DNA of 64,000 bases. Source: Polytrichum commune (taxonomy: Eukaryota > Streptophyta > Polytrichopsida > Polytrichales > Polytrichaceae). Every line of letters begins with the position of its first letter. Positions within the stretch are counted from its first letter, which is position 1. Position numbers and translations under genes: made by a program. Below the pieces are notes generated by a model, which saw only the letters and a program-made list of their open reading frames with translations, ran no database searches and was not told where the DNA came from. Shown here in pieces: positions 14,283 through 39,824 of this stretch. The DNA is taken from assembly GCA_950295325.1 (NCBI GenBank), contig OX485809.1, positions 37,081,081-37,145,080 of the forward strand, written 5' to 3'.

Positions 14283-14290
14283 CTTATATA
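14283..14290 (-). promoter_or_regulatory. TATA box of the small acidic gene
   Basis: TATATAAG on the minus strand, 42 bp from the start codon at 14241. Confidence 0.5.
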
Positions 14291-14489
14291 TTGAGCTCAA
14301 AGGACTTTATGAAATATACAATATTTGATGTAATCCAAGATGTAGAGGATCCAATTCTCGTTGGTAGGATAAAGACAACACAATAGGAATAAAAAGAAAG
14401 TTGGTGAAGTCAAAAAGTTAGTTGCACTTTTTGAAAAAATCCCCCGACACCCGCATTGGAAACCTCTTTGAAGCTTCTATATTTGATGG

Positions 14490-14795
14490 GTTGTCCTTTC
14501 ATTCAACAATTCACATATTTGAGCTTCAACCTTAGTGGTTCGTATAGTTTCACAATCCACACGCATTCGAATGTCATATTAATTCAACAAAGTACATATT
14601 TGTGCTTCAACCTTTGTGGTCCATATGGTTTCACAACGCATATTAGGCATCCGAATGCCATCTTCATTCAACAATTCACATATTTGAGCTTCAACCTTAG
14701 TGGTTCGTATGGTTTCACAACCCACACGCATCCCCTTGCCCTTTCATTCGACAATTCACATATTTGTGCTTCAACCTTTGTGGTTCATAAACCCT
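14490..14795. repeat. Tandem repeat, four units of 80-84 bp
   Basis: Units share CAACAATTCACATATTTG, then GCTTCAACCTT, then GTGGTTC(G/A)TATGGTTTCACA. The ACATATTT landmark falls at 14513, 14594, 14678 and 14758. The array ends in AAACCCTAAACCCC telomere-like sequence. It lies upstream of the small acidic gene. Confidence 0.8.
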
Positions 14796-14799
14796 AAAC

Positions 14800-19057: not shown

Positions 19058-19261
19058 CGTGAAAAAAACCGCGTGAGTGAATGAATGTAGAAATGAGTGC
19101 GTGAATCTGGAAAAAAAATTGCGAGGGTTCCCCCACAATTTGCCCTGCCCTCCCAAACCCCCTGAGACCCGCGCGGTGCCGCTGTCCTTGGGACGGCAAC
19201 AAGGTCTCGGGTCCCTTTGTGGTGGGAGGAGAGGAAAGTGAGGGGAACTAAAACCCCACGG

Positions 19262-19270
19262 CTTTATATA
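19262..19270 (-). promoter_or_regulatory. TATA box of the kinase gene
   Basis: TATATAAAG on the minus strand, 205 bp upstream of the ATG at 19057 and 60 bp downstream of the motif array. Confidence 0.65.
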
Positions 19271-19329
19271 GGCAAAGGGGAGCACAATCATTATGGGATC
19301 CCGGTCGGATTTGACATGGGGCACGAAAA

Positions 19330-19858
19330 GGACGTATGGGGAACGTGGGAACGCGGGGGCGGACGGAGGGAATGAGGGGGCGGACGTAGGGGAACACGGG
19401 CGGACGGAAGGGAACGGAGCGCGGACGGGAGGGAACGTACGGGAACATGGGGCGGACGGGAGGGGAACGTGGGGCGGACTGGAGGGGAACGCGGGCGGAC
19501 GGGAGTGGAACGTAGTGCGGACAGGAGGGAACATGGGGCGGACGGGAGGGAACATGGGGCGGACGGGAGGGAACGTGGGCGGACGGGAGGGGAACGTGGG
19601 CGGACGGGAGGGGAACGTAGCGCGGACGGGAGGGAACATGGGGCGGACGGGAGGGAACGTGGGGCGGACGGGAGGGAACGTGGGGCGGACGGGAGGGAAC
19701 GTGGGCGGACGGGAAGGGAACGGGTGCGGACTGGGGGGGAACGGGCGCGGACGGGAGGGAACGCGGTAGGGAACGGGTGCGGACGTTAGGAAACGTGTGG
19801 GAACGTGAACGCACGGCGGGGGAACGTGGGGCGGACGTAAGGGAACTTGGGGCGGACG
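19330..19858. promoter_or_regulatory. GCGGACG / GGGAACG array upstream of the kinase gene (element 1)
   Basis: Here the purine-rich form (GGGCGGACGGGAGGGAACG units of about 17-19 bp, some nearly identical in tandem around 19525-19720) is on the plus strand. It lies upstream of the minus-strand kinase TATA box. Confidence 0.65.
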
Positions 19859-20190
19859 GAGCCCTCCGCGTTCCCCCCGTCCGCCCCCGCGTTCCCCCGT
19901 CCGCTCCAGCGTTCTCCCCCCCGTTCCCAACCCCCTTCCGCCCCACCCCTGTCCGCTCCACCCCCCTCCCCCGTCCGCCCCACCCCCGTCCACTCCACCC
20001 CCCTCCCCCGTCCGCACCACCCCCCTCCCCTGTCCGCACCACCCCCCTCCCCCGTCCGCTCCACCCCCCGTCCGTCCGCACCACCCCCCTCCCCCGTCCG
20101 CACCACCCCCCTCCGCCGTCTGCACCACCCCCCTCCGCCGTCCGCACCACCCCCCTCTCCCGTCCGCCCCACCGTCCGCCCCACACCTTC
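19859..20190. repeat. CGTCCGC-CACCCCC array, opposite strand polarity
   Basis: At about 19858 the array flips: the plus strand becomes C-rich (CCGTCCGCACCACCCCCCTCC units) up to about 20190. The two halves are imperfect inverted copies meeting at GCGGACGGAGCCCTCCGCG. The flip lies 270-600 bp inside the right terminus of element 1. Confidence 0.75.
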
Positions 20191-20375
20191 CTTAGTCATA
20201 TTTTTCTACTTTGATTTTAACAGAACCCTAAACACAATGGCAAAATGGTTTACTTGGCAAGGGAAATATGCACATCCACGTCGGCGTTTTCTGCCACATA
20301 GGACGCCACCTTGGCAAGAAGGTAAGTATTTTACCCACCCTAGTCCATTCCCCCTATGTTGACCCTACGTGGACC

Positions 20376-20461
20376 CTATTGTGTCGTGACGGAGGGGTCC
20401 GTCACGACACGACCTGACATGACGGCACGACACCGTCATGACGTCGCGATAGACAACCCTG
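20376..20461 (-). repeat. Right terminal inverted repeat and subterminal repeats of element 1
   Basis: It ends with the inverted 13-bp TIR (ATAGACAACCCTG) and carries several CGTCACGACA-like motifs, including a perfect inverted pair around 20382-20410. Bases 20376-20396 also repeat, in direct orientation, the segment just inside the left terminus (from 2054). Confidence 0.8.
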
Positions 20462-21822: not shown

Positions 21823-21850
21823 AACACTATATTCGTTAAATTGAGACTTT
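21823..21850 (+). repeat. Left terminal inverted repeat of element 2
   Basis: Starts AACACTATATTCGTTAAATT and continues GAGACTTT. It matches the inverted right end with a single C/T difference. It is preceded by ATAA. Confidence 0.87.
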
Positions 21851-21974
21851 TTGGGCATTTTGAGACATTCACAAAAATAAGAACAAGGATAAATGGAACA
21901 CATATTGGAGAAAGTTGTAAGATGCGAACACTTTGAAGCGGGTGTTTAGAACAAGAACCCCATTAATAACTCAT

Positions 21975-22235
21975 ATTTGGGATTGTTTAGGGTGGGCAAT
22001 CCAAACCTTAGGCCAAGTTGAAGGGGAAATCTTAAAACATTCATATTATCGCACAAAAACTTGTATGAATATGGTTTAGGTAGGGCAATCCAAACCATAG
22101 ATCATATTGAAGGGGAAATATGTGAACCAATATAATATAACATACAAAATATTCCAAACTCATATTTGTGATGGTTTAGGTAGGGCAATCCAAACCTTAG
22201 ACCATATGGAAGGGGAAATCATGTGACACTTATAT
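21975..22235. repeat. Subterminal repeats of element 2, three units
   Basis: GGTTTAGGTAGGGCAATCC followed by AAACC, then a GGAAGGGGAAAT-like segment, occurs three times, with starts near 21985, 22073 and 22173. The spacing is about 90-100 bp and the set lies 160-410 bp from the left terminus. The core is an imperfect palindrome (GGTTTAGG...CCAAACC). It is possibly a transposase-binding region. Confidence 0.65.
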
Positions 22236-22360
22236 TATTGCAAAAAAAACATACAAAGTGTGGCATGTAAAATGCATAGCATGCTAACACCACACATCCA
22301 TTGGATAGTGCGACCCAAAATGTTCTTGCCTATGGCCCACAACCCTACGCCTACTATGGC

Positions 22361-23165
22361 CTATCTAGCCTCGGAGACTACCTCTTTTTCTTTTGCTTCA
22401 TTTTCTTTTGCTTTTTTTTCTTTTGCCTCTTTTTCTTTTGCTGCGGCTTCTTTTGCTCGCATTGCTTCAACATTCCTGAAAATCTCCGCCCCGCGACTAT
22501 AGCCATTCTTGGGGTGACCGCCATCAAAAACACATTTTGGATTCCGTCGGCCGCCCGAATTATACGACGAAGAATTCGAATACGATGAAGTGGACTGTCT
22601 TGCATTTCTGGTCATGGAGTAGAAACGCTCCAACTCGACGGACGCACTAGCCCGCATAGGTTTACGGGTGGGAGCAACCTGCAACGCGTCAATGCAAGAA
22701 CACATGTGTTAGTTTAGGGAGGAAGACCCAAACGTGTCACACGTTCAATTTTTAAGTGCGGGATGATTGTAATGCGCGGTTAACCATGTTTTTTGGGGGG
22801 GGGGGGTTCACCTTGTCACCGGGGGCGTTCCCGTCGGAGTTGGCGAGGAGGGGCAAGGCGTCCCGCAAAGGGATAGGAAGGGTGCCACTCTTCGTGGGCC
22901 GAGCGTCCATCCGCAGCCGCCGTTGAGGTGTAATACTGCCGCCGGGCCGAGAGGGGGACGTCCGGACGCATTTGCGATTTATGCCCTTGAGCGGCGACGG
23001 GGACGGAGATGGCCGGAAGATTTGCTTGGGTGGGGGGCTATCGACGACGCCGGCGTCGATAGGCTCCTTGGAGTAGTCGATGGTGGACGCGGCATCGTAG
23101 ACGGTCTCGTAGAAGAAGCTCCCCAAGTTTGATTCGTTGACGATCTCAATCGAGGGCTCCAAACG
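22361..23165 (-). CDS. Lys/Glu-rich protein of unknown function, element 2 cargo (two exons seen)
   Basis: Two exons join in phase. Exon A is 23165-22812: acceptor TTTTTTGCGCCAG upstream, donor AAG|GTGAAC. Exon B is 22678-22361: acceptor GCGTTGCAG, ending in a stop. The encoded segment starts RLEPSIEIVNESN, has a Pro/Ser-rich middle (PPPKQIFRPSPSPSP) and ends in a helical repeat of KEAKEK type (VEAMRAKEAAAKEKEAKEKK). The start is unresolved. A tiny first exon (ATG at 23279, donor TGT|GTGATA) would join in frame, but I cannot confirm it, and the HAD-like gene upstream shows no in-phase donor. No family is recognised. The C-terminal charged helix could be a coiled coil. Confidence 0.55.
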
Positions 23166-23292
23166 CTGGCGCAAAAAAGGAAACAAAACAAAACCCAAGG
23201 GGAGGGGGGGAGGGGGGGAGGGGGGAGCATGTGAAAATCGATATACAATTGAGGCATAATATATCACACACAATGGCACACCATGTAGTATC

Positions 23293-24057
23293 TCAAATGA
23301 GTTTATTATATTTCGCGTGAGCGTACAACTCTCTGTACATATAGTCCTTCGGATCCATGTATCTTTCGCCTATCGGATTACAACTAAGGAACCGGGGCAC
23401 GGGTAGTCCGCTCCCCACGAGCGTTTGAATGTACTTAAGTAGGTCTAACAAAAAGCGGTCTCGGACCTTCTCGACCGTCCACGTGGGGCAAACTATGAAG
23501 TTCGAGGTCGGGTTCAAAATGTTTTTGGAAGCGTTGTCGTCCACCATCAACGTGTTGTCACGGGTGGGGCGAACGTCGTAGGGACAGCCGACCATGGTCG
23601 GACGCTGGTCCCATACGACTGGCTTCAAGACCTTAAGAAATTGGTTTACGGCGGGGTTGTTGGGCTTTTTCACAACCCTGCCCTCGGGGGTGTATAACGT
23701 TCTACAAGAGTCCTGTCCTAGGACCAAGCACGGGGGTTGGAGTCCCTTGAAGATGAACTCCACGACGGCCTGGGTGTTCTCGGACTTCATGGAGCTCCAC
23801 ACGATCACCCACCATTTGGATAGGGCGACCTGCAGGAAGCGCCGAAGCCACGGGCGGAGGTACACTAGCTTGCTTTTGATGTACGCGGGGGGACCATCGT
23901 AGTTGGCGTCCTCGGGCTTGCAGAAAGGCACCGTGGGGACCCTCGGACAATGCACGCACTGGACAAGGACCCCGTTGAGGTCTAGCACCAGGAACCGGGT
24001 CTTGGGAGGCGAAGGTGGCGAGGGCAAAATCGGGGGGACCACCGCGCTGTCCTCCAC
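23293..24057 (-). CDS. HAD-superfamily FCP1/NIF-like phosphatase-domain protein, element 2 cargo
   Basis: About 254 residues show the order of FCP1-like HAD proteins. Motif I is FLVLDLNGVLVQ (about 22-33), motif II is VIVWSSM (84-90), and motif IV is LMVDDNASKNILNP (about 170-183). The nucleophile Asp is present but the usual second Asp of DxDx(T/V) is Asn. Plant FCP1-like relatives with DLNG exist, but the general-acid position is lost, so phosphatase activity is doubtful. The frame begins at a GTG. It is open upstream to a TAG near 24140 without any ATG, and a good splice acceptor (CTCGTCGCCGCAG) lies near 24103, so an upstream exon is likely. It ends KYNKLI at 23293. It lies downstream of the ParB-like gene on the same strand within element 2. 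Confidence 0.7.
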   Translation of the reverse strand: MEDSAVVPPILPSPPSPPKTRFLVLDLNGVLVQCVHCPRVPTVPFCKPEDANYDGPPAYIKSKLVYLRPWLRRFLQVALSKWWVIVWSSMKSENTQAVVEFIFKGLQPPCLVLGQDSCRTLYTPEGRVVKKPNNPAVNQFLKVLKPVVWDQRPTMVGCPYDVRPTRDNTLMVDDNASKNILNPTSNFIVCPTWTVEKVRDRFLLDLLKYIQTLVGSGLPVPRFLSCNPIGERYMDPKDYMYRELYAHAKYNKLI

Positions 24058-24587
24058 ACTCCTCGGAGAGGATCGGTGGGGAGCTGCGACGCTATGCTCC
24101 GAACCCTGCGGCGACGAGCGAGAGAAGGCGGACGAGGACTATGTTATGCTATGTCCATCTCAAGCAGAACGGAAATTTTGTGCAAACACAAGAAGAATTG
24201 GACCATTGGTGGCAACAAAAACATACAAGGGGAACAACATACATTGGGACACGGATGCAAACATATGGGCGCCAAAAATAATAATTTTATTTTTACAAAT
24301 CTCTATGTACAATTTGATTGGGGGGGGGGGGGGACCGCGGTGAACGAGGGCATTCACACTATCCTAATTCTACATCTACAAAATTGGTTGCGCGCCGCCA
24401 AGGTCGAGCATAGTCGAGTGCAGGTGAGACGAAGGGGATCGCGGGGGGGCACGTTGGGGGGAGGGGGAGCAAGTGTAGAGCATGGGGGGCAGGGGGTGTG
24501 CATTTCCTCCTAGCAAGGGGGACACGACCACGCCAACAAGACAATGACCCAGGAAGTTTGGGTCGGTCGACCCAAACTGGGGAGGGC
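24058..24587. other. Spacer between the ParB-like gene and the HAD-like gene in element 2
   Basis: It contains a G-run (near 24320-24333) and one copy of the element's palindrome (24556-24577), just after the stop codon of the ParB-like gene. No coding frame is convincing; it may hold an upstream exon or promoter of the HAD-like gene. Confidence 0.45.
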
Positions 24588-26084
24588 TCAGTGTATTACC
24601 TCGCCCTGGTCATGTCTCGACGATGTGGAAGCCTCCACCGTCCCCACTGCCCCGCCTCTCTCGCCACCGCCTTCTCCGACGACGTCAGGAACCTTCTCCT
24701 GCAAACGATCGGCATCAGGCCCTTGTCCTAAACCAATCTCCGCATTTGCATCATGCATGGGTTCATCGATTTGGTTAGGAGTAGAGGTATCACCAGGCCC
24801 TTGCAAGCCTTCAACATCTAGCATGGCCGTGTCTAGTTGACACCCATGTTGGTCAAGGGAGGACTGCGCTGCAACGGGGTTTGGGTCGCCCGACCCAAAC
24901 TGTCCTGCATCTGGAGAGGGCCCTTCGGACACTCCAGTGGATGGTGGGTTTGGGTCGGTCGACCCAAACATCCTGGGGTCGTCCGATTGGTGAGGGGGCG
25001 CCATGACTATCGGGGGCCGAAGTGGTGGAGGGCCCAAAGGGGAGGAGGCTCCAGAGACGCGCCAGATGTTGGGGTCATCCACTTGCTGGACCGGCGCGTA
25101 CGGAACTTGGTGGGGCCGCATCAAGTGCTGGAAGCTGAAAGACGATTGCGGCACAGGCTGCTGAGGAATGCTCTGCGGAGGGAAGCCGGGGGGCAAGTGT
25201 GGGAAGGAGCTGGAGGGAGCCACCACCAAACCTTGCGCCCACATTCCTTGTATCACTTGTGATATCAATTCGGCGTGGGACGGAGGTTGGGCCATCGCCC
25301 TCTGTCGTTCCTGCTCCAACAGGAGAGCCCTTAGCTCTGCTACCTCGTTCCGCATTGAGGGTTCTTCTGCGGCAGCCTTCTGCATGCGGACTCGCTGCTC
25401 CTCGTCCCTCCTCATCTTCTCGTTCGCCTCCTCCACAGTCAGGACCTCGGGCTTCACCCTAACCATGCCAGCGAACGCTGTCGGGGACGGGGGATCTGAT
25501 CTTAGCCGTTTGGCGAGCTCAATGTCATCGTCGTCCTCGCTGCTTATGGCAATGGTCTCCTCCACGGAGTAGTCGCCATACAGCTTCTTCCCCTTCATCT
25601 TCCTCCTCTCCCTGAACGTGGCGGTCGCGTCCCTGGAGTACATGTCCCGTGCATCGTCCACCGTCAGGACGGGCACGAGCTTACTCTGCGGGGTTGCCGC
25701 CCGCATCGCCTTCTTCCGTTGAGGGGCTTCGGATTCTTGCGTGAAGCCCGTTGCCCCTTCCTCCACGTCGCCTTCCTTCTCCGCCTCCTCGTGCTCCTCT
25801 TCTTCCTCCTCCTCCTCGACATCGCCACCTTCTGTGCGGGACGGATTGCCCGGATGCAACCCGACAAGAGGTTCGGGTTCTTGGGTTGTGGCCCTCATGG
25901 CCATTTCTTCCGGGTTGATCCGCCTCACCCTATCAAGAGGGTTTTCGCCCCCCTGAACAACCTCGTCGACGTAGCTACCCGGGATCCAATCGAGGATGTC
26001 CATCTTCTTCGCCAACGATCTCTGCGTTCTGTAAAATGGCAGATCGCCATCCTCTATGTAGGAGTATATACTCAGCCCCGACAT
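24588..26084 (-). CDS. Last exon of the ParB/methyltransferase-like gene: acidic then Gln/Pro-rich tail
   Basis: The exon begins at acceptor GACTGTGTAG|ATGTCGGGG and runs 498 codons to a stop. Its first residues (MSGLSIYSYIEDGD) continue in phase from the preceding exon and complete a segment that resembles a methyltransferase SAM-binding loop. An Asp/Glu-rich block (a run of Glu near residue 95), a coiled-coil-like segment (NEVAELRALLLEQERQRAMA) and a long Pro/Gln-rich disordered tail follow. Two copies of the element's palindrome lie inside the coding sequence (24879-24900 and 24948-24969), where they encode FGSGDPNP and FGSTDPNP. The exon could be read as a free-standing gene, because it starts with ATG, but the flanking splice signals and phase favour an exon. 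Confidence 0.65.
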   Translation of the reverse strand: MSGLSIYSYIEDGDLPFYRTQRSLAKKMDILDWIPGSYVDEVVQGGENPLDRVRRINPEEMAMRATTQEPEPLVGLHPGNPSRTEGGDVEEEEEEEEHEEAEKEGDVEEGATGFTQESEAPQRKKAMRAATPQSKLVPVLTVDDARDMYSRDATATFRERRKMKGKKLYGDYSVEETIAISSEDDDDIELAKRLRSDPPSPTAFAGMVRVKPEVLTVEEANEKMRRDEEQRVRMQKAAAEEPSMRNEVAELRALLLEQERQRAMAQPPSHAELISQVIQGMWAQGLVVAPSSSFPHLPPGFPPQSIPQQPVPQSSFSFQHLMRPHQVPYAPVQQVDDPNIWRVSGASSPLGPPPLRPPIVMAPPHQSDDPRMFGSTDPNPPSTGVSEGPSPDAGQFGSGDPNPVAAQSSLDQHGCQLDTAMLDVEGLQGPGDTSTPNQIDEPMHDANAEIGLGQGPDADRLQEKVPDVVGEGGGERGGAVGTVEASTSSRHDQGEVIH

Positions 26085-26154
26085 CTACACAGTCCAAGTT
26101 ATATAGACATTAGAATTAGGCGAGGGACATAAACAAGACCAAGTACAATGTGTA

Positions 26155-26320
26155 GTTTGGGTCGATCGACCCAAACCAACAAAGAACCTAGTTTGGGTCG
26201 ATCGACCCAAACCAACAAAGAGACTAGTTTGGGTCGATCGACCCAAACCAACAAAGAGCCTAGTTTAGGTCGATCGACCCAAACCAACACAGAGCCTAGT
26301 TTGGGTCGATCGACCCAAAC
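26155..26320. repeat. Five palindromes at an exact 36-bp spacing, inside an intron (element 2)
   Basis: Copies of TTTGGGTCGATCGACCCAAA (flanked by G and C) begin at 26155, 26191, 26227, 26263 and 26299. The 14-bp spacers are nearly identical (CAACAAAGAGCCTA). The set lies in the intron between the 26349-27680 exon and the 24588-26084 exon. Confidence 0.9.
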
Positions 26321-26348
26321 TGCGCACGAGTTATAGAAAGTCGCTTAC

Positions 26349-27983
26349 CATGGCAGCATAGATAGGTTTAGAGCCTCCGAAGACGTTGAAGATGCAATCC
26401 CCTCTCCTCGTCAGCGTCCTCATCATTCTCACGTAAAATTCCATCCGCAGCTCATCTAAAGGATAGTTCGCGTATTTAGCCTCGTCGTAGAGGCACTTGT
26501 TGACACCCAACCCTTCTGGAACTTGGAAGAGTTTGTCCATCCGGGATATAGGGTGGTTCGGCACCTTCAGCAACTCCGCTTTGTACACGAAGTACAAACA
26601 CAAGACGTTGACGAACTTGGTCTTCTTGTCCCTCAACGTCGTGTAAGCTCCCTCCGCCGGTGCGGCGATGTAATGAGACTTGGAGACTGCATACTCCGGC
26701 TGCAGTTTCCGGGCAAGCTCGTACACCTGCTCCGCCCTTCTATCCTCGACTATCCAAAGCCAGATATCTACCTCCCTGAACTTAGGGCTTGCATAATCGA
26801 CGAACTTAGATAGGAAGGGGTCATAGAAGAGGGTGCTCATCGTGCCCTCAAATGAGCTTCCAGGAATATTCCTGAAATCAATCATCCCAAAAGGAAAGCG
26901 GTCCCTTGCTTTCGTCCTTATTACCATTCTGGCGTCTTGACCTGGCCAGCCCTGAATTTTCAACGGGTCGGCGGTGACAAGGTTGAAGTACGCTTCCCCT
27001 TCAAACTGGACAATCTTCTTCTCCTTGATGAAGTTCGAGAACGCACGCGCTGTGTGATCCGGAAGCGCCCGGTTCTTCCCACCCTTCACCATCTTGGCCC
27101 GCAAGAAGTCGTCCCCCGCTTCCCTTATTAGAGCCGCCATGGAGGCACTGGTGAACTTATATTCAGCTTTGAATGCTCTCCAGTTAGCCTCATGGACCTC
27201 GCCGTCCACGACAATATTCCTCTCTGGCACTAGTTTATGCAGCTCCTGCACGATAGTCGTCTTCTTTTTCCTGTTATCCGTCCATTCCTTCATGGTGTAG
27301 CATGAAGGAACGAAGGATTTGGGCTTTTGGAAGACAATCTTCGGGTGCACCCAACACCTCTTCGCCGTGGGTGCCACGTGCAGGATGTGAGATGCCGCCT
27401 TCTCCACCTCCGTCTCTGACAGCCCTTGAAGAGTTCTAAAGAACTCTCTCACGAGAGGCTTCATCTGCTTGAAGCGCGAGGTTTGGCTGAAGAAAATGCC
27501 AGTGTCGGGGTCGATCAAATCCCCCGTCTCGTGCTTTTCAAACACGGTTTTCCACTTCCTCCAAACTGAGTCAGATGCTGTAATCAAGTAAATCTCCCCC
27601 TTGAGGTCGCTGTATTTCTTCTGCTTGTGGCTCGAATTATCAATGGAGGAGAATTTGTTGATCATTTGGTATTTGAAATCCTGCACGTCCACAAAACAGA
27701 ACATTTGAATGCGTGTTAGATATGTACATGTGATTTCCAACCCATATCATGACCAACATCTGCAACAACAGTTTGGGTCGATCGACCCAAACTAAATAAA
27801 CTAGCTGCATCAGGAGTTTGGGTCGGTCGACCCAAACTAAATAAACAAGGCTGCATCAGGAGTTTGGGTCGGTCGACCTAAACAATACTCACCTCCCATT
27901 TGGGATTCTTGTCCTTCGCATTCTCCCTCTCCTTGGGAGGCCTACCATAGAACTCCCACACCTCCCGCGAGGCCATGATATTC
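26349..27983 (-). CDS. Middle exons of the ParB-like gene: region resembling an N4/N6 DNA methyltransferase
   Basis: Exon 27983-27893 (reading NIMASREVWEFYG, acceptor GGATAAG, donor GAG|GTGAGT) joins in phase to exon 27680-26349 (acceptor GTGGACGTGCAG, donor ATG|GTAAGC). The large exon encodes about 444 residues. Its end, LTRRGDCIFNVFGGSKP followed by IYAAM, then MSGLSIYSYIEDGD from the next exon, matches the pattern of the SAM-binding motif of beta-class N4/N6 DNA methyltransferases (GD-hydrophobic-x-D/N-x-F-x-GS...AA...G...E-D). I do not find a clear DPPY/DPPW catalytic motif; YDPFLSKFV is the nearest, so activity is doubtful. ParB-like domains fused to such methyltransferases are known in phages and mobile elements, which supports the reading. 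The family assignment is by eye only. Confidence 0.55.
27771..27883. repeat. Three palindromes in an intron of the ParB-like gene (element 2)
   Basis: Copies begin at 27771, 27816 and 27862, spaced 45-46 bp with related spacers (CTGCATCAGGA). They lie in the intron between exons 27983-27893 and 27680-26349. The third copy has one mismatch in its right arm. Confidence 0.88.
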
Positions 27984-28629
27984 CTTATCCAGGATGTGGG
28001 AACACGCGAACACCAAAAATGTCCGGATTGGCGGTTTTAAGTGCCTAATCCGGGTTGTCCGGATGACCCTAGTATCGTCCAGGGATTCTGTGAAGTGTAG
28101 GAGGTAGAGATTTTCCGGAACTGTTTGTTTCCCCTCTTCTTTTATATTTTCCGGAAATCCTAGTTTCCGGCCTTTTTGAAGTCCTCCTGTATCTGGAACT
28201 TCCTCTTCCGGATTTGACTCCTAAGTCCCAGACGGATTGTTTCCTCCCTAAAATATCTTTGTACTACGTTCTATCCTCCCTTAATGATGGGTATTTTCCG
28301 GTGAAGACGTCCTTCTCTAGAGGGGGGTCCGGATCTTCCCTCACAACCAAGCCGGATTGATCAGGTCCGGATTGGCAGGTCACACAGGGAGTCCGGATTA
28401 CCTCCTAGGACCACAACGACAGGAGGGTGCCGGATTCCACGAAGGGGGGTAAGCTCAACAGAGTGAAAGAGTGATCTGTACCACGTTCCGGAATATCTTG
28501 TCTCTACGCTACTCGGATATCCGGATCGATGGTGTCTCCTTCCCCCTTCCTCCGGATCTGTATCCCCTCATCCGGAATCCTAACTTACTCCTATACTTCT
28601 CCGGATCTCATCCGGCTAGTACTACCTTT

Positions 28630-29190
28630 GGCTCTACTGAATCCGGGCTAACTAGGCGATCCGTACCATTTTCCGGATTGGTCCGTCTAAAGGCGGTGGG
28701 ACCTCTTCAGAAGCTCGGATGGCATGAATCCGGATCCCTCCCGGACTTCACCCAATCCTCCCAGCGGCTATCCCACCTAGACGTTTCCCGACCAGCCGGG
28801 AAAATGAGGTTTCCCTCCCACTACACCCGGAAAGGTTCTGGAAGGTAATGACTAGTGATCTGATCCGGGTCTCCCCTTCCGGCGGACGGATCCGGTATAC
28901 AACTGCCTGGGGCTCTACTAAATCTGAGATAACTGGGCGATCCGTACCACTTTCCGGATTGTTCCGTCCGAGGGCGGTGAGACCTCTCAAAAGATCGGAT
29001 GGCGTAAATCCGGATCCCTTCCGGATTTTACCCAGTCCTACCAGCGGCTATCCCACCCGGACGTTACCCAAACATCCAGAATAGTGAGGTTTCCTTCCCA
29101 CTACACTCAAAAAGGATCCCTAGGCTTGCAACCGGATCTAATCCGGGTTTCCTCTCCTTTGTCCTATTCGGACTTCCTACTCCTTCCTTA
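28630..29190. repeat. Tandem duplication, period 281 bp
   Basis: GGCTCTACT starts at 28630 and again at 28911. The following sequence (GGCGATCCGTACCA, TTCCGGATTG, then GCGGCTATCCCACC, then GAGGTTTCC) is shared in order with scattered differences. Confidence 0.85.
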
Positions 29191-29397
29191 CTTCTAGCGT
29201 ACAACAACCTCCCAATCCGTCCGTGCACAAAACAAATGAGAATAGGTGAAGATCTAGAGTTTTATTGAGTAGGGAGCAACACAATACAACAATGGAGAAG
29301 GAACACTTCTCCAGCTCCTTATTCAACCTTAAGTAGAGGCTGTGATCCCTAACTAAGGGTGGCGGCCCAGGCGGCCGCCCTGGAAAACCCTAACTGC

Positions 29398-29457
29398 GAG
29401 AAATCCGGAACTTCGGACTTTCCGGATTTCTCGGAAGATCCGGAATTCCCGGATCTT
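29398..29457. repeat. Two adjacent hairpins containing CCGG
   Basis: GAGAAATCCGGAA at 29398-29410 pairs perfectly with 29420-29432, and AAGATCCGG at 29435-29443 pairs perfectly with 29449-29457. They lie inside the CCGGA-rich insertion. Confidence 0.8.
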
Positions 29458-29904
29458 GATCTGCTGACACAAAATTTGAATTGCATGCTCGCCTAAGTCT
29501 GATCTACCTATTCCTGCTGTCCTAATTCTGATCTACCTACAGCTGCATGCTTAAGTCTAATTCAAGTGGTGTGGTGCTTTTTCGCCGCCTTTCCATTTTT
29601 GGTTTGACTTGGTAATCCGTTGATGGCGGAAGCTCCTCCTCCGGGGGCAAAATAGTCTCCTTGGTTGCTGAAGGCCCTAGCCGCTGAAGGCCCGGTTTGC
29701 TCCCGGGATCCGGAATTTGACTTAAATTCCGGTCCGGCCAAAGTATCAGTTTTAACCATTTTATCGTGTAAGGCGGAGTTCAAAAACCCATTATTCCTAA
29801 TACGGCTAAAACACTCAAATAAACCTGATTACCCCTAGGTTAGCATGGTAAAATATGGAATTTGGATCCGTATTTCCGTATTTCCGTATTCCGGCGAAAA
29901 AGTG

Positions 29905-31143
29905 GGCTCCCACACAGGAAGCTTGGTAGGCCCTCTTCTTATTTCCCATATTGAAGTACCGGGAGATGTCGCTGAGCTTGGTCTCGTCGTCAGACCACAC
30001 CACCAGTGCCTTCCAAACCTTCAGCTTTTCCTTCTGATTGTTCGGATCATCCCACTCATTCATGAGTTGGATTTTCTTGGATGCCTCCACGCTGTGCTGG
30101 CCGTCTATGAGCCAAAAATCGCCCTTCTGAATTGTGGGCCACATTTCAGGTGTAGGCATTTTCTTGAGACCCTGTGGCATCACTACTATCGTTTGCCTGT
30201 CGTCTTTAAACTGCTCGCAAACGATCTGCGCGATTATCCAGTCAACGTAGGCGTCCTCCTTTGCCCGGACACACTTCTCCGGTGGCGCTAGATGGCACTG
30301 GCTGATGTTCACGTCGAACTTAAAATCCCTGCCCATGAAAAAACAGTGGGAGCATTTCGTCGTGAAATTGTTCACGATTTTCTGCAGCTCCCCTGCATCC
30401 ACCTCTTCGCCGGGCTTCGGCATGCGCAACTCCGGTGAGACTGGCTCGTCAGTCATCACAGATGACTCTCTCCCCCTCTTGGATGGAGTTGTTTGACGGC
30501 TCCCAGAAGGTGTAGGCGTCTCGCTATCCGCAGGTGTTTGGGAGGGAGTGGTCCTCCGTGAGTCAGCCGGTACTGGTCGCGGCTTCCTCACCGATTGAGG
30601 TCTTGACGACCCTGCTCCTTCCTCTGTGGTTGCTTTCCGCCTCACGGGTTGCTGAGACTTGGTTTTGCTCTGCAGGGCTTTGTTGAGCACGCTGATTGCA
30701 TGCTTTAGTTTCGTGAATCTGCTCGACACCTTTGTGTTCGATGTACTGTTATCGATGAATATGGACTCCGGTTTGATGACGACTGGTTCTACACATGTTT
30801 CTTTTGCATAGATAGCGTCAAAGGGTTCGGAGAATTGGTGCATAAACATATGCGCGTTCTGGACAGCGTTGTTCTCGAGGATGACATCCACGTAGTCTCC
30901 AAGAGACTGAACCGATGCCACCTCCCACCCCGTAAGAGTAGCCCATGTGTGCTTCTCCACGGTCCCAACCTTCACAACAAAAATCATTTTGTATTGCGAA
31001 CCCTTAACCACTTGTATAGACCACGCGAGGACAAGCCCGTCCTTAGGGGAATAGGAGTCATCCTGCGGGGTTTCGTGCTCCTGCCACAACATGTCTGGCG
31101 CAGGCATGAACCACCTTTCGTCGGGTCTTTTCTTTGGAGCCAT
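29905..31143 (-). CDS. First coding exon of the ParB-like gene (DGQH motif), element 2 cargo
   Basis: The start is the ATG at 31143 (MAPKKRPDERWFMPAPDM), which directly follows TTTTCTTACAG, so a leader intron may end there. The first 150 residues have no family I recognise. A Ser/Thr/Pro-rich basic linker (about 185-250) follows. Then comes a domain with DFWLIDGQHSVEASK, where DGQHS lies at about residues 347-351. DGQH(R/S) is the signature of the ParB-like/DGQHR group, whose members bind DNA or cut and modify nucleotides. Later, SRYFNMGNKKRAYQAS resembles the helix that follows that motif. The reading is lost near 29905 at the CCGGA-rich insertion; the frame runs on to a stop at 29815 through inserted sequence. 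Palindromes lie 5' of it (31169-31190 and 31431-31664). Confidence 0.6.
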
Positions 31144-31430
31144 CTGTAAGAAAATAATGTGCAATGTTAGTTTCGGTCGTTCGACCCAAACATCTACGAC
31201 ATGAATAGGTTTAGGTGGATTGTATATTTATATATTTCAGCATCATTTGTATTGATAATAAGAATGTTTTGATTATTGGGTGGATTTGCATTTTATATTG
31301 TTTGTGACATGCAGGATTACTTGATACTTTTCCTTGATACATTCCTTGATTATTATTTTTTAGTGGATGTGAATTTTATATTGATGCAAAAATCATGGAT
31401 TTCTTTATGAGTTTATAATTAGAAGACGTT

Positions 31431-31664
31431 GTTTGGGTCGTTCGGCCCAAACATGATGCTTTGTTTTGTGTTTGGGTCGGTCGACCCAAACAAGAGGCTG
31501 TGTTTGGGTCGTTCGGCCCAAACATGATGCTTTGTTTTGTGTTTGGGTCGGTCGACCCAAACATGATGCTTTGTTTTGTGTTTGGGTCGGTCGACCCAAA
31601 CAAGAGGCTGTGTTTGGGTCGACCGACCCAAACCTGTGGCCGTGTTTGGGTCGTCTCCCCAAAC
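31431..31664. repeat. Seven palindromes 5' of the ParB-like gene (element 2)
   Basis: Copies begin at 31431, 31470, 31502, 31541, 31580, 31612 and 31644. Spacing alternates between 39 and 32 bp because two spacer types (one with CATGATGCTTTGTTTTGT, one with CAAGAGGCTGT) are mixed. Some copies read GTTCGGCC at the centre. A degenerate copy lies at 31169-31190, close to the start codon. Confidence 0.88.
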
Positions 31665-31920
31665 TTTCCTATTTTAATGTAATTTTTAAAAGTTGGCACG
31701 TAGCATATACAATGCTTATGCGTTGTGTATGCTACAATACCTTCAATTGACAAACACTTATTGCATATAATAAAAGAAAATACCTTTGTTGTATGTAGCA
31801 GTTGTTGTAAACAGTTGCTTTAGAACAGGTGTTCTTCTTCCAATAACACAGAAACAGTTGAATGTAACCTCTCACACAAATCCACAATATCTCATACAAC
31901 TCCTAGATCTCTTTTGAATC

Positions 31921-32316
31921 TCTCAAACAACAATTCAATACTTCAAACAACCTCTGAATCTCTAAGAACAAGTGAATCTCTCAAAACAATAACTGACTCT
32001 CTCAAATGACTTAGATATCTCTCAAACAACAATTGAGTGTTTCAAACAACCTCTGAATCCCTAAGAACAAGTGAATCTCTCAAAACAATGACTGACTCTC
32101 TCAAATGACTTTTGTATCTCTCAAACAACAATTGAGTGTTTCAAACAACCTCTGAATCCCTAAGAACAAGTGAATCTCTCAAAACAATGACTGACTCTCT
32201 CAAATGACTTTTGTATCTCTCAAACAACAATTGAGTGTTTCAAACAACCTCTGAATCCATAAGAACAAGTGAATCTCTCAAAACAATGACTGACTCTCTC
32301 AAATGACTTTTGTATC
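31921..32316. repeat. Tandem repeat with an exact 99-bp period, four units
   Basis: TCTCAAAC landmarks fall at 31921, 32020, 32119, 32218 and 32317. Each unit runs through CAACAATTGAGTGTTTCAAA, then ACCTCTGAATCC, then AAGAACAAGTGAATCTCTC, with very few differences. It lies 5' of the ParB-like gene in element 2. Confidence 0.92.
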
Positions 32317-32319
32317 TCT

Positions 32320-35280
32320 CAAACACCTCCTGATTATCTTATAGAACTCCTAAATCTCACAAACTCTCCAACTACAATACAGCCTCCAAAACCCGCAAGC
32401 TTAGAATGTTGGAAAACCCTTCAACAATCTTCTACTTACTTCACTCTACAACAATCACTCTACTAACTCTCACGCACTCTAAAACTCTCTCCTTAGGTTT
32501 CTGTTCTATTGCAAACACTTCCTAACTTCTACAGCAAGAGAAGGGAGGGAAGGAGAAGAATCAGTAGGCGCCAAAGCAACAAGAAGGGAGGGAAGAGAAG
32601 AAAATCGCCACCCTGAATCGCCACGGCGCTTCGCGAAAGCGGCGCTTCAGGAGAGGCGGCGCTTCCACAAGAGGCGCGGAGCGAATGCTTGGCGCGGAGA
32701 GAGAGAGAAAGAGCGAAAAGTTGTGACGGCTGGGGTTTTGTATGCCTCGGGAATTGGCCCCCAACCGCACGAATAGGGTGCCAACGGGATTAGGGCACCA
32801 ACGGAATTAGGATTACGGGGAACCCTAAATCCTAAAGCCAAACTGTAAACCCTTAGCGGGCATTAGTATTTTCAAGACACTTTGGAGTACCCTAATGGGG
32901 CATTCCCACTTGACTTTAGTTAAGACCCTCACTATTTTATAAAGACCGGGTAAAGCTCCCTCGGTTATAGCGGAGGCATCCAACTATCCCAATGCACCTA
33001 CAAGAACTTGCTCCGGAGATTTTCAAGTAGGTTTTAGTTAAGTAGCTTTCACACATGTTCATGGTTTTATCTACCAAGCAATGAATGTTGGGTAGTTTTT
33101 GTCCCATCCCCAAATGCCTTACTACTCACCTATCTTACCATCGGTTTTTGTTAATGAAGCTCCTCGTGCCCTCATAGCTAAGACTAAAAAGCAACCAATC
33201 ACAAGGGTGGGAGGCGACACTTTTAAAATTCCTATATTCTTGCCTAATGTTTAGGTACCGATGGGAGCGTCGGTGGTTGAGGCTTAAAACCTCCACTTTT
33301 GAGCCATGCCACATCATTTGCCACCTAGGCTCGGCACTAAAAAGAGCCATATGTGTGAAACCTAGATAACTAAAACCGCATTTAGACTAATACTACTTCT
33401 AACTAATGTCAAGAGGGAATGCCCCATAAGGTGCACATCAAATGCGGTATTCTACAAAATGAAACCATTTATACAACTAATGCATTTTTACAACGCAACG
33501 TTATGCTAAAACTAAGACTTAACCCCTACTCACATGACACCATAACCTAAATTTCCCAAACAAGTTGAAATCATTGGTTTCTCTTTTGTTTGAGCAAGTT
33601 AGAAAAATAATACAATTGCGTGACATTTAACGATGTAATCGTTGACATTTAGACTTTACCAATGATGCCAAGAACTCACACAATATGCAATGAATAAAAA
33701 ATATAACCCCCGTCCCCCAACATGAAATTCGGAAATTTAGGATATTTGAATGTGTTTGCTAAATGTATACCTTCCCCAAGAGCATTTTCTCAGGGTTTGG
33801 AATTGCATGATCCTTATGTCGAAATGCTAACATGCTCAAGTTTTTAGTAAATCCCTTACATACTCACTTGAATGAATCACATAGTCGCCAATAAACCATG
33901 GATCGTGATATATGTACTTCGAATGTGATATAAAAGTAAATCGGAGAACCACAACATCAAATGAAGCCCTTTGACGCAATCATGTTGTTATTGAATGTTC
34001 CCTCCACGTATATTACATAATGGCGCAAGATAAAGTTCATGTTGTTTGTATGTGGAGGTAGCAGTGAACAACTACGAATTTTTGTATTTAGGGTTTAGGG
34101 TTTAGGGTTTAGGAGTTAGGTTTATAACATATTAATCTATCCAATATTAACATATAACATTGACTTACTGGTGAGAATAGGTTTTTACTGGAAGGTAATA
34201 GAAAAGACGATCTTGATTATGTTTATTTGTTATTACGGACGTTTAAACGTGATATAGTGAATGGTCTTGTGTTTATTCAAATAACATGAAATGTTGTGGA
34301 TGTTATTAGGGGTAAGGGGTTCAACTTTGGATGTTTTGCTCACTTTAGGGAATCACATAGTCGCCAATAAACCATGGTTCATGATGTATTTAATATATGG
34401 AATGTGATGCAAAAGTAAATAAGAGAAGCACAACATCAAATGAAGCCATTCACGCAATCATGTTCTTATTCATTGTTCCCTCCACATGTATTGGATAATG
34501 GAGAAAGATATAACAGATATTGTTTGCATAATATGAAGAAGAGTCTAATAGGAAGGTTATAGTAAATACAATCTTGATCATGTTAATATGTTATTTGGGA
34601 CGTTTAAACATGATATACTAATTGGTTTTGTATTTTGTCAATACGTATTTCATGTTGTGGATGTTATAAGGGTTTAGGGTCCAACTTTGGATGTTTTGGT
34701 CACACACATTAGTAAACTTGAAGTGAACTTGAGGATGGATTGAAATAACATTAAAAGATTGAACCAAAAAGCGACATTGCTAGTTAGTATCCCCTTAACA
34801 ACGTCCACATACGTTTATCATTGCCACACTTCCATGCGAGATAACAGAGCCGCAATGTTCTAGGGTTTAGGGTTTAGGGGAGACAAATAAATAATTTTAT
34901 TCATCATGACAATGGCCTCAAGCCTTGGAAACTCTCTCATAATTGCAACCTCCAAATGGCCCCAACCCCACCTAAATAGGTTTGCACTTGAAAGCATTGA
35001 ATGGAGTTGTGGTTGGGTATACATATTGGTTAAAATATACCGTTGTGACACTTGAAAAAATTAATGTGGCCGCCACCCTTCCTCCCAATGTCGTATGTCA
35101 TATACACACAAAACCAAAAAAAAATTAAATATCATAGACTAAGACATATGACGGCTGGGGTATGAGAGGGGCATTGAAAGATGCGCATTTTCTACAATAA
35201 ACAGAAAACGGGGAATTCTGTCAGGAGGTTTGAAATAACAAGGCGGGAAAGGCATCCAATGAGGAAGTCGGGCAAGTGGA
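32320..35280. other. Non-coding interior of element 2 with duplicated segments and telomere-like motifs
   Basis: No gene is recognised. A segment starting AATCACATAGTCGCCAATAA occurs at 33875 and again at 34351 with about 170 bp of similarity. A second pair (around 34200-34330 and 34560-34700) is also duplicated. Four TTTAGGG units lie at about 34088-34115 and further copies at 34861-34880. Confidence 0.55.
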
Positions 35281-35289
35281 GGTGGATAG

Positions 35290-35296
35290 TATAAAG
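35290..35296 (+). promoter_or_regulatory. TATA box candidate for the element-2 transposase gene
   Basis: TATAAAG lies in a plus-strand setting (GATAGTATAAAGGGGCGC) about 1.3 kb upstream of the start codon at 36624. A leader intron ending at TTTGTGTAG (36619) would bridge the distance and contain the palindrome array. Confidence 0.45.
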
Positions 35297-35574
35297 GGGC
35301 GCACCCCCCAAAAGTTGGTTCTTTTTTGCTCTTCTCCCACTCCTGAATTCGTAGAGAGAACTCTTAGTCGGAGCTGTACTTCGAGGTTCGTTCACGCTGT
35401 TGTTCATGAGGACCTATTCACAGCATGCAAGTCCGCAGTGAACTTTGCAATGAGATGAAATTCCACACACCTCTCAATATCCGCTGCATTATACGCTGCA
35501 TTATACGCTGTATTATACGTCGGTCGACACTAGTGTTGGCGGGTTTCAGTCTGACCCTTGTGAGGTTTGGGTCG

Positions 35575-36422
35575 GTCGACCCAAACCCCTCCACTAGTGT
35601 GGGCGGGTTCTAGTCTGACCATTCTGAGGTTTGGGTCGATCGACCCAAACCCCTCCACTAGTGTGGGCGGGTTCTAGTCTCACCCTTGTGAGGTTTGGGT
35701 CGGTCGACCCAAACCCCTTCACTAGTGTTGGGGGGGGGGTCTAGCCTGACCCTTGTGAGGTTTGGGTCGATCGACCCAAACCCCTTCACTAGTGTTGGGG
35801 GGGGGTCTAGTCTGACCCTTGTGAGGTTTGGGTCGGTCGACCCAAACCCCTTCACTAGTGTTTGGGGGGGGGGGGGTCTAGTCTGACCCTTGTGAGGTTT
35901 GGGTCGGTCGACCCAAACCCCTTCACTAGTGTTGGGGGGGGGGTCTAGTCTGACCCTTCTGAGATTTGGGTCGATCGACCCAAACCCTTTCCCAGTGTGG
36001 GTGGACTTACCCTGTGAAAGTTTGGGTCGACCGACCCAAACCCCTTCCGAGTGTGGTGGGTTTACCCTGTGAAAGTTTGGGTCGGTCGACCCAAACCCCT
36101 TCCCAGTGTGGATGGATTTAGCCTGTGAAAGTTTGGGTCGACCGACCCAAACCCCTATCCAGTGTGGGTGGATTAACCCCGTCAAAGATTGGGTCGGTCG
36201 ACCCAACCCCTTCCCCAGTTTCGGAGGTTGTAGTTGACCATGACAAGGATTGGGTCGGTCGACCCAAAATTTTCCCCACAGCGTGATGGAATTCTAAATG
36301 GCCCTCAACCCATCATTGTACAAGGTTTGAGTCGGTCGACCGGAACCCGACCCTATCCCACGGGCAAGGTGTGGATGGCCCTCAATCCCTGGTGCCACAG
36401 GGTTTAGGTCGGCCGACCCAAA
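35575..36422. repeat. Palindrome array upstream of the element-2 transposase (about 14 copies)
   Basis: Copies begin at about 35575, 35629, 35693, 35760, 35826, 35897, 35964, 36020, 36075, 36131, 36187, 36249, 36323 and 36401, spaced 54-78 bp. The centre varies (GATC, GGTC, GACC), and the last four copies have mismatches. Spacers share CCTTCACTAGTGTTGGGGG and GTCTAGTCTGACCCTTGTGA. It probably lies in the leader intron of the transposase gene. Confidence 0.9.
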
Positions 36423-36623
36423 CTCCCACCCAAAATATTTTGTGGAACATTTTGTGGACTGGCGCATAGTATTGGGAGCTCACATTGCATTTGTGTTGCA
36501 AATGTCTTGATCCTCAGTGTCCCCATTTATCGTGATGTTTTGCATTTTCCAATATTTGATTTTTTTGGACCCTTATGTTGTGTCCATGTTTGTTGAGGTT
36601 TCATGTGCATTTGTGTAGGCGCA

Positions 36624-39293
36624 ATGGAGGGAGTTGGTGGAAGAGGGGATTCCTTCTCTGAAGACATGGGCAGCACCCAATCTCTGTCTGGGGATGAGCT
36701 AGACATTGTCGGGGAGGATAGTTTTGATGACAGTGCAGATGAAGGTCATTTGGGGAGTCCTTCGCCATCTGACCCTTTTTGCCCCATTGTGGAATGTGCG
36801 GGGCTTTCACGAGCTTCATGGGTGAATTTGGATGTGGTACTTGTTAATGACAGTGGAGTTGTTGTGGCGGAGGGTATTTGTCGTAACACACATCCACAAG
36901 ATTGCATTGATGAACACTCCCTTGGCACCGAGGACGTTGGAGTTGTTATATTAGAATCACTTGTACATTCGGAAGTCAATCCAACTCATAGGTTCTCGTT
37001 GCGAAGGTGGCCGTTGAGGAATGTGACAATTGAGGGGGTTAGCTTGCGCGACCATGAGCGACGACACGTCCAAATCCAACAGGAGCTCCAAGCAAACATT
37101 CGGCCACGCAAAGGCCTTCGGAAGTACGAAACATTGACACGTCCTACTCCGTCTGCAAATAAGTGTAAACGTCAAAGGTTGCTCTGTGAGGAGTCTATTA
37201 GAGAAGTTGCTACGAAGGATTGTTGTGTACATCGTTGTTGCCAATTGTTCCCAAGAGATAAATTGAAGGCCATCCGTGAAGAAATGTGGCTTGGAGATTT
37301 CCGTCTAAGATCCACCAAAAAACTTGATGTCCATAGGGCGATACACTTTAGCGAATACATCACAAAAAGACGAGGCGACAAATTTGCCCGTTGTTCCAAA
37401 TGCGAGAAGTTGAAACGCCTTCGAGATGCACACACGATGGGAACAGAGTCCTATGCCGCACATCAAATGAACTATTTCAAGCATGTGAACATGCAAGAGG
37501 CACACCGTAATGATTACTACACAAATAGAGCTTTGTCCATCTCCAGGCCTTTGGAAGTCCTTACAATCATCCATGACAAAATGGACCATGCCAAAACAGC
37601 CTCACCATGTTTTGCAAATCGAATAAAAGCCACGGATGGCCTTTTTAAGCTTCCTGTTTCGGTTACAGGTGATTTTGATAACAATTGCATTGCATTACCT
37701 AAACACAAATTTGTGCGTTTAGGTTTGTACTTGGGGCCATACATGTACACCATGTGAATTTTTTGGTGTTATAGTTGAATATTAAACCATTGGGTTGCCT
37801 TTGCAGGAATGATTGCACATGGGCATGGAGATGTCAAGTATGCTCATTATGCTCTTGATTTGTATCCGGGGGATTCAAACCACACGATAGGGTCATTTGC
37901 AAAGCTTTTACGTGATTTGGAGAAACCGCCGTCCTATTCATCAAGATTGCTATTTGAAAACTCGGGATCAACACCTCTATATGAAGCGGTCTTGGATGGA
38001 AGAGATGTATGCGTGCACTCATTGCCGGAGCCACCAAGTGAAGATGTGATTGCCAAGAATTTGCCCCCAACTCTGCGTGTCCAATTGGACAATTGTGCGA
38101 AGGACAATAAAAGTAGATATGTTTTTGCATATTGGTCGTTGTTGGTTGCGAAAGGCATTTTCAAGGAGGTTTTTGTGTCCTTTCTATTGGTAGGCCACAC
38201 GCACGATGATATTGATGCGTCCTTTGGGCGGTGGAGCATGAAGTTGCGCGAGGAGGATTTTCCAACAATCCCATTGTTGATGAAGTCGTACATGGATTTG
38301 GAGAACATTCCCGTCATCCCACATATGATGGAGGAGGTTCCAGACTTCAAGGCATTTATAGAACCGTATATTCGAAGCGGAGCTCACCGATTGATCGGGC
38401 ATACGAAGGCACAACAATTTCGGTTCTACGTGCGTGACGATGGTGTCCCCGCCATGCAATACAAGTTGTTGTGCACATCACAAGACTGGAGCCCGCCGGA
38501 GGGTCTCCTTGTATGGCGTGTTGATGGGGAGGGAAGGACGATGTTGCCTGACGGAGAGCCTAAGCCTTGCAAACCAATACCCATGAAGAATTTGGAGGAC
38601 ATTTGTAAAGGCATATCAGGCTTCATACAATATTGGGAGAGTTTGAGGGTAGCGGATGTTGGTGGATCGTGTTGGCTTCGTTACGGAAGTTGGATACAAT
38701 ATTGGACACGTGTTCGTGGCGCTTTGGCAAACCTTCATCAAGATACACCCCTTACTTTAAGGCATGGGTTTTGGCCACAAACACGTGTCAATGTACAAGC
38801 TTCGAAGGCTAGTCTTTTGGGAAATGGAGAGGTTCGAGAGGAGTTTGATGTGGACGACCATTACGTGGGGCCTGCTAGTAGTCGTCCGCCACCATCTTTC
38901 CGCATTGCAGTGGATTGTCATGAAGGTTATATGCTCATTTTGCGTCCTGGAGATGAGACATATGCAAAGCCAGTGTGGGTGGCAAGAGCTTTGTCCAAAC
39001 CAAATTTTGTAACTTCCAGCCCTCATTTTCGACAAATACAAGTAGAGTACTACCGACCGACATCACGGAATGAAGATGTTGTTCGGCATTATACAGGCTG
39101 GAATACAAACCCTAACTTTCGGTGGAAGGTGGATTCTGAGCATGGTCCATCTTGGATAGATACAGATTCCATATTCATAACATGGAAACCACGGAAAAAT
39201 CATAGTGGATCGGTGTCCATCCCTCAAAAGTACATAACTTTTGCAAAAGACAACCTTGCTCGGATCGCAGAAGAAGCAACCCACGTTAAATGA
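36624..39293 (+). CDS. Transposase-like protein of element 2 (resembles DUF7869 family), two exons
   Basis: I join exon 36624-37722 (donor G|GTTTGT) to exon 37807-39293 (acceptor GCCTTTGCAG), giving 861 residues in one frame. The start is the ATG after TTTGTGTAGGCGCA. The N-terminal half holds Cys-rich pieces (DCCVHRCCQLF, ARCSKCEKLKR) that could bind zinc. The second half has LDNCAKDNKSRYVFAYW (the Asp near residue 461) and FLLVGHTHDDIDASFGRW (HTHDDID about 497-503). This D-N...K-N plus GHTH..D pattern is what I remember of DUF7869 proteins, which look like RNase-H-fold transposases. Position close to the right terminus supports a role in mobilising element 2. The intact frame over two exons suggests it is functional. 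An alternative donor cannot be excluded, but this one keeps the frame. Confidence 0.75.
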
Positions 39294-39796
39294 GAAGTTG
39301 GTAGGATTGTGTTAGCATGATTATAGTGTAATATGTAATTCGACGAATATATATTACTCATATGTGTGCTCCTCAAACTTGGGGCAAAGTTTGGGTAGAA
39401 CTTGCGAATGCTATATTGTTTGGGGTTGGATGAATATCCATTTACTATATTTCAATACAAATGTGAAGTTCATTTTTTTATTAAGTTTGGGACTAAATTG
39501 TCCATTGAAGAAAAATGCATTTATTGCATGCACTTTGTATGTTGCAATGTCTATATTTTATTGACCATGCTAATAATATAAACCATTTTATATGTTTATT
39601 GGATGAAACTAGTTTGGAGTGCTCTACCCAAAGTGTTTTTGTTGATGAAGTTGGTGTTGAGTGCTCTACCATATGTGCTTATGTCCACACATAATAGATT
39701 TGGGATATTAGAACATATAATATATTTGAGATTGTTCGCAATATAGTTTCGGAACACGGAATGTTGTTTGATCCATATATTAATTTGAGACTAGAG
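39294..39796. other. 3' flank of the transposase gene inside element 2
   Basis: AT-rich, no coding frame. GGAGTGCTCTACC-like sequence is duplicated at about 39616 and 39657. Confidence 0.45.
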
Positions 39797-39824
39797 AAAG
39801 TCTCAATTTAACAAATATAGTGTT
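39797..39824 (-). repeat. Right terminal inverted repeat of element 2
   Basis: The reverse complement starts AACACTATATTTGTTAAATT and continues GAGACTTT. It is followed by ATAA at 39825-39828. Confidence 0.87.

Follow-up and report, generated by a model that had tools for sequence, protein, structure and literature searches.

A 64-kb stretch of the Polytrichum commune genome (assembly GCA_950295325.1, contig OX485809.1, positions 37,081,081 to 37,145,080; here called the window) carries an 18.0-kb DNA transposon, element 2, which has two divergent genes, one coding for a DUF7869 protein (a predicted transposase) and one accessory gene. A 22-bp palindrome recurs throughout the interior of this element. 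The sites, their arrangement, their conservation and their near-exclusive location within copies of the element, among the sites examined, are directly established. From the sequence comparisons, the palindromes are probably binding sites for a dimeric regulator encoded by the element, with an estimated probability of about 0.6; that they are protein-binding sites of some kind is considered very likely.

In the window, 31 sites with at most three mismatches to TTTGGGTCGATCGACCCAAA are found between positions 24557 and 36422, where 0.01 are expected (100 dinucleotide shuffles), in agreement with the approximately 30 copies reported in a preliminary description of this DNA. Two decayed sites, at 31645 and 36326, bring the total to 33. 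The consensus of the 33 aligned sites is GTTTGGGTCG-NN-CGACCCAAAC, having 10-bp arms and two variable central bases. As the flanking G is kept in 32 of the 33 sites and the flanking C in 31, the conserved unit is 22 bp long; the palindrome itself had been recognized correctly, but its length (given as 20 bp) and its variable centre (given as four bases) need correction. The variable part corresponds to positions 10-11 of the 20-mer. Every arm column holds at least 1.3 bits of information, compared with 0.42-0.46 bits one base beyond, and both arms are perfect in 22 of the 33 sites. At the second centre base, all 33 window sites have T or C, a limit that does not hold in other element copies. 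All 52 occurrences of the half-site GTTTGGGTCG in the window are within 24500-36430, so that neither the neighbouring element 1 nor the host genes have it, as initially described.

In the accessory gene the sites are found in introns A, B and C and within a coding exon, and in both genes they occur upstream of the ATG, which also agrees with the preliminary description. Their positions in the window are as follows (no strand is assigned to these features):
24556..24577, single palindrome in intron C of the accessory gene; the arms are invariant in 9 of 9 aligned copies (L014 left out of the alignment) and the centre varies.
24879..24970, two palindromes, 69 nt apart, in a coding exon of the accessory gene, encoding FGSTDPN and FGSGDPN.
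26155..26320, array in intron B of the accessory gene; 5 palindromes in 36-bp units.
27771..27883, array in intron A of the accessory gene; 3 palindromes spaced by 45-46 bp.
31170..31665, predicted 5' untranslated region (UTR) intron of the accessory gene; 7 palindromes and the decayed site at 31645, six of them in 32/39-bp units.
35565..36423, array on the DUF7869 side, between the TATA box (35290) and the ATG; 13 palindromes and the decayed site at 36326, spaced by 55-77 bp.
22712..22733, degenerate palindrome-like site with 3 mismatches in the 16 arm positions, within a late intron of the accessory gene.

In the accessory gene, the predicted 5' UTR intron ends with the acceptor TTACAG directly before the ATG and has a candidate donor at about 31784; in the DUF7869 gene, too, a splice acceptor immediately precedes the ATG, and the TATA box is at 35290.

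The FGSxDPN peptides of the accessory exon are the translated palindrome, and in 10 copies all 20 coding sites have the identical codons TTT GGG TCG NNN GAC CCA AAC. Among these copies, the coding sites have 0 synonymous differences in 540, whereas 21 other conserved F/G/S/D/P/N columns have 108 in 681, and a fraction of 0.0052 of 5,000 random column sets is equally low in synonymous change. This test used 10 of the 12 copies of the coding exon (L026 and L028 omitted) and located its two sites by exact DNA match, both being present in all copies used.

The palindrome can also be followed in homologous proteins. When 37 homologues (47-90% identical) are read for the motif, 26 carry 45 units, and a perfect palindrome with 9-bp arms is encodable in 42 of the 45 units versus 7 of 15,362 other heptapeptide windows. 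With the right arms shuffled among the 45 units, on average 31.2 and at most 38 units are palindrome-compatible. The arms occur in the pairs FGS-DPN (36 units), FRA-ARN (5) and FGP-GPN (1), each left arm fitting only its partner; three units (FGS/DRN, FRS/DPN and FRA/DRN) are mispaired. In the frame-shifted P0142, VWVVRPK and VWVGRPK are encoded by the same DNA in another frame.

It is possible to regard the palindromes as functionless repeats, spread by tandem duplication or gene conversion, in agreement with the tandem units which grow and shrink between copies. Between five site groups (the single sites 24557 and 31171 omitted), the 22-mers are 87-95% identical and the adjoining 12 bp only 8-30%, showing that the site is kept rather than the repeat unit. 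The same site thus stands amid unrelated spacers; when this is taken together with the lack of synonymous change at the coding sites and with the single intron C site, whose arms remain constant while its centre changes, neutral spreading becomes very improbable. Within the 33 palindromes, 67 CpGs are kept. The observed/expected CpG ratios of the array spacers are 0.19, 0.23, 0.46 and 0.56, compared with 0.50 and 0.57 in two host stretches; the latter two arrays are not clearly below the host values, so that CpG loss is clear only in the first two. The retention of CpG in the sites is compatible with selection or protection and proves neither.

A role in RNA has also been considered, in which 10-bp hairpins in introns, including the 5' UTR introns, affect splicing, processing or the production of small RNAs. 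The majority of the sites are in predicted introns of the two genes, and the palindromes would fold as hairpins. However, most arm deviations on the transcribed strand are mismatches, with one clear G-U wobble (26264) when inspected by eye, and the asymmetric centre is present in both orientations (GT in 15 window sites, AC in 3), which makes such a role highly unlikely.

The genome-wide count is 1,661 exact copies of the GATC-centred 20-mer in the host assembly (407.8 Mb, 64 contigs), compared with about 0.0004 expected by simple arithmetic; the reversed control 20-mer is absent from the assembly. The contexts of the sites rest on 50 matches listed of these 1,661, all on contig C1 and forming 14 clusters, all of which were examined: 10 were read with 20 kb of sequence (19 or 20 kb for neighbouring stretches) and 4 with 6 kb. 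As the copies were located via this 20-mer, copies with decayed or different sites would be missed. Among the matches listed, 49 of 50 sites (13 of 14 clusters) are within loci holding exons of element 2; the confinement to this element that was first proposed is therefore strict within the window and nearly so beyond it.

In the other copies the sites recur at the same six places. In the 9 copies having exon A and read at length, sites are present upstream of exon A (9/9), in intron A (9/9), intron B (8/9), the coding exon (9/9) and intron C (8/9), and on the DUF7869 side (8/9); the missing positions belong to L012 and L014, both of which look damaged or rearranged. The array spacings differ among copies, being commonly 32, 36, 39, 56, 64 or 78 bp, and the numbers, units and centres vary as well. 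In 15 loci, 337 sites with at most two arm mismatches are found, of which 252 are perfect and which use 12 of the 16 possible centres (40 of 377 sites, having three or four mismatches, are left out of the centre and position counts). Conserved arms around varying centres, as first described, are thus seen both in the window and across loci. The 67 single mismatches in these loci are unevenly distributed, with 27 at arm position 5 and none at position 4, a pattern explicable by protein contacts; 15 of the 67 fall at the arm's two CpG positions, which is no excess.

The remaining cluster, L016/L017 (C1, about 4880180-4880460), has 9 sites in 32-bp units, 5 of them perfect, outside any recognizable copy of element 2. 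This array is between the TATA box (L016 9669) and the coding sequence of an unrelated gene, in what is predicted to be its first intron. No element-2 coding sequence is found in this gene, no TIR (terminal inverted repeat) is found around it, an inverted-repeat search gave none longer than 11 bp, and Pfam shows nothing convincing for those pieces of the gene that were scanned. Next to the element copy L018 there is a 38% match to one of these pieces. A DGNHR motif is present in the frames of this gene (L016 9830-10000, L017 1-4200), and a VVDLTCSTGAS stretch in these frames, without Pfam match, presumably resembles a methyltransferase. Either this gene acquired the array, or a host gene or other mobile gene shares the regulator. 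Of all the results, this array speaks most strongly against strict confinement.

Because of this 9-site array, it is possible that a host transcription factor binds the palindrome; the element would then have assembled arrays of a site of the host in order to drive the element genes, with the L016 gene as an ordinary host target. For such a factor many host targets would be expected, but among the 50 matches listed one is outside element copies, and the window holds no site with at most four mismatches in the 16 arm positions outside element 2. The paired arm changes in the homologues also suit a coevolving, element-borne partner better. A host factor is therefore considered unlikely, although less so than the other alternatives.

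It could also be suggested that the sites are bound by the transposase and serve transposition, since the element codes for a DDE-type protein and has imperfect relatives of the palindrome (GTTTRGG...CCAAAC) near both ends, at 21985-22320 (22075, 22175, 22300) and 39612-39633 (39613). Three of these relatives stand in 89/100-bp repeats, and they are possibly older or separate binding sites. The nearest proper sites are, however, at least 2.7 kb from the left end and at least 3.4 kb from the right end, and are clustered in predicted introns, such that this function is most improbable. The same distance makes the accessory protein a likelier binder than the transposase.

The preferred reading, a dimeric regulator encoded by the element, would then work as follows. 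A dimeric, sequence-specific protein would read the palindrome with one subunit per 10-bp arm, leaving two free bases between them. The binder would most likely be a product of the element itself, and probably that of the accessory gene; its being encoded by the element is judged the more probable case. Dense clusters, located in further introns as well as in the predicted first intron of each gene, would draw the binder almost only to element copies; there, the bound protein would keep up transcription of the element genes, most likely in that it removes or blocks silencing by the host. By analogy with known systems, an anti-silencing outcome, as opposed to plain activation, may be suggested at slightly less than even odds. 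We infer binding, dimerization, the identity of the binder and an anti-silencing or activating outcome from the properties of the sites. The interpretation as dimer-binding sites, already made in the preliminary description, is the one best supported, in view of the arms and centre, the uneven mismatches, the coding sites free of silent changes and the arm pairing; confinement to the element is strong support, but not absolute.

Several observations weigh against the element-encoded regulator. One is the L016/L017 array; in addition, no DNA-binding domain is recognized among the accessory exons scanned, and a single-sequence model of the accessory exon 29935-31143 is uninterpretable (pLDDT 34.7). 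Both coding sites of L020 have a middle codon ending in T and thereby lack the innermost base of one arm. The homologue units were chosen by a regular expression favouring the motif, and their counts include related sequences. An alternative palindrome predicted from the homologues, with GTTTCGGGCG arms, has 0 exact copies in the genome for the one codon choice searched; the source homologues may belong to other species.

The element itself has the following structure:
21823..39824, element 2, DNA transposon of 18.0 kb, with 28-bp TIRs (1 mismatch) and a 4-bp target site duplication (TSD), ATAA.
21823..21850, plus strand, left TIR, beginning with AACACTATATTCGTTAAATTGAGAC.
39797..39824, minus strand, right TIR.
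36624..39293, plus strand, DUF7869 gene, predicted DDE transposase; exon 2 starts at about 37807, intron borders by eye.
22361..31143, minus strand, predicted coding exons of the accessory gene, divergent from the DUF7869 gene; based on open reading frames (ORFs), splice borders and exons recurring in other copies.
29920-31143 with 27893-27989, minus strand, first coding exon of the accessory gene, split by a long terminal repeat (LTR).
26349-27680, minus strand, accessory coding exon (ORF, splice borders).
24600-26084, minus strand, accessory coding exon (ORF, splice borders).
From 24138 to about 23293, minus strand, accessory exon with an NIF phosphatase domain (PF03031, E=1e-13).
Ending at 22361, minus strand, two C-terminal accessory exons (splice borders by eye).
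27995..29914, no strand assigned, probable solo LTR with TG...CA ends and TSD CAGGA, inserted into the first accessory coding exon.

The element termini recur in 8 of the 10 other loci read at length, and both ends are present in L006, flanked by AAGT. The sole Pfam match of the transposase candidate is PF25273 (E=3e-40). A homologue, P0034, models as RNase H-like, with the core and three conserved acidic residues, and the DUF7869 protein is thus predicted to be an RNase H/DDE-like transposase. The organism-named DUF7869 proteins among the 120 matches listed are from mosses (Ceratodon, Physcomitrium). Approximately 0.4 kb near about 37345 is missing from the DUF7869 gene here and present in the 99% identical sibling L018, so that the copy in the window may be defective.

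The Pfam scan of the accessory protein covered five exon pieces, all but the last exon (22361-22690) and 27893-27989; four of them gave no match and the fifth NIF alone. A likeness of a DGQHS motif in the accessory exon 29935-31143 to ParB/DGQHR-like motifs is unsupported by searches of Pfam, NCBIfam, PHROGs and PDB sequences and is not claimed. The query pieces of exons A and B are 378 bp apart in L018 and about 2.26 kb apart here, which supports the insertion of the LTR; this LTR (27995-29914) is no part of the palindrome system. Upstream of the accessory gene, a 99-bp tandem repeat is present in 4.2 copies (31911-32325).

For the minus-strand ORF 35661-36206, within the DUF7869-side array, none of 429 candidates has E <= 0.01. 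Among viral contigs, one contig has a single 18-mer site, and no relatives of the DUF7869 protein or of A1 are found there. The exact 22-mer is absent from the prokaryote species genomes searched, and Rfam gives no matches at gathering scores.

Element 1 is a hAT-type transposon of 18.4 kb (2046-20461), with the TIR CAGGGTTGTCTAT and the 8-bp TSD AGAAGCGA. It has a DUF659/hAT-dimer transposase at 5949-9176, as well as a RING-like and a kinase-like gene, both under the Pfam cut-offs. It also has its own GC-rich arrays of the CCGTCCGC type (5259-5731, 12669-13217 and 19347-20190), standing just upstream of three TATA boxes (5742, plus strand; 12653 and 19270, minus strand), and these arrays are possibly a second, independent private regulatory code. 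A host gene is present in three neighbouring copies with DKANQAGNVAG-type repeats (51482-51871, 54152-54562 and 57583-57945), which we take to be LEA-like.

Among the papers listed by literature searches, no title or abstract opening matches element 2, and DUF7869 occurs in none of the papers searched. Two-gene elements are known from the CACTA (En-Spm) group, in which the accessory protein binds repeated sites and counters methylation, and element 2 is likewise a two-gene element. CACTA TIRs begin with CACTA, the TSD is 3 bp and the TNPA sites are subterminal, whereas the termini of element 2 begin with AACACTATA, its TSDs, read in the two copies that have both ends, are 4 bp (ATAA and AAGT), and its proper sites keep a distance of at least 2.7-3.4 kb from the termini. 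In view of the TSD length and the position of the proper sites, element 2 is not a CACTA element. Self-targeting anti-silencing is known for Spm and is well established for the VANDALs, whose transposase VANA is of the MULE type. The transposase candidate of element 2, whose sole Pfam match is DUF7869 (PF25273), does not fit this type.

In the VANC21 study of VANDAL21 in Arabidopsis (Hosaka et al. 2017), the density of a 9-bp motif (YAGTATTAY), arrayed in one orientation and mainly non-coding, directs the protein to its targets, and VANC, which has a DUF1985, causes loss of methylation (PMC5735166). The study also describes dense tandem arrays of the motif, placed upstream of the transposase and within introns of the accessory genes, with rapid turnover and with different motifs in related families (PMC5735166). 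Element 2 shares with this system a short motif enriched in one transposon family and rare elsewhere (49 of 50 among the matches listed), as well as tandem arrays in introns and upstream regions with fast turnover of their units. It differs in that its site is a 22-bp palindrome, present also within coding sequence, and in that its accessory protein has an NIF phosphatase domain and no DUF1985 in the exons scanned. By analogy, the element 2 system appears to work like VANDAL/VANC, yet is no member of it. It may tentatively be proposed that a transposon lineage unrelated to the VANDALs by its transposase independently evolved a private anti-silencing code, in which a dimeric protein reads a long palindrome found also in coding sequence, arms and protein coevolve and one array was captured by an unrelated gene that is now in the circuit of the element. 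If true, this would be an apparently independent case, in which the transposase is another one, the dimeric site is longer and each genome holds many copies, implying that the strategy is general; silencing could be controlled at chosen loci with a compact protein/site pair, and the paired arm changes would let one study directly how a selfish element alters its own address.

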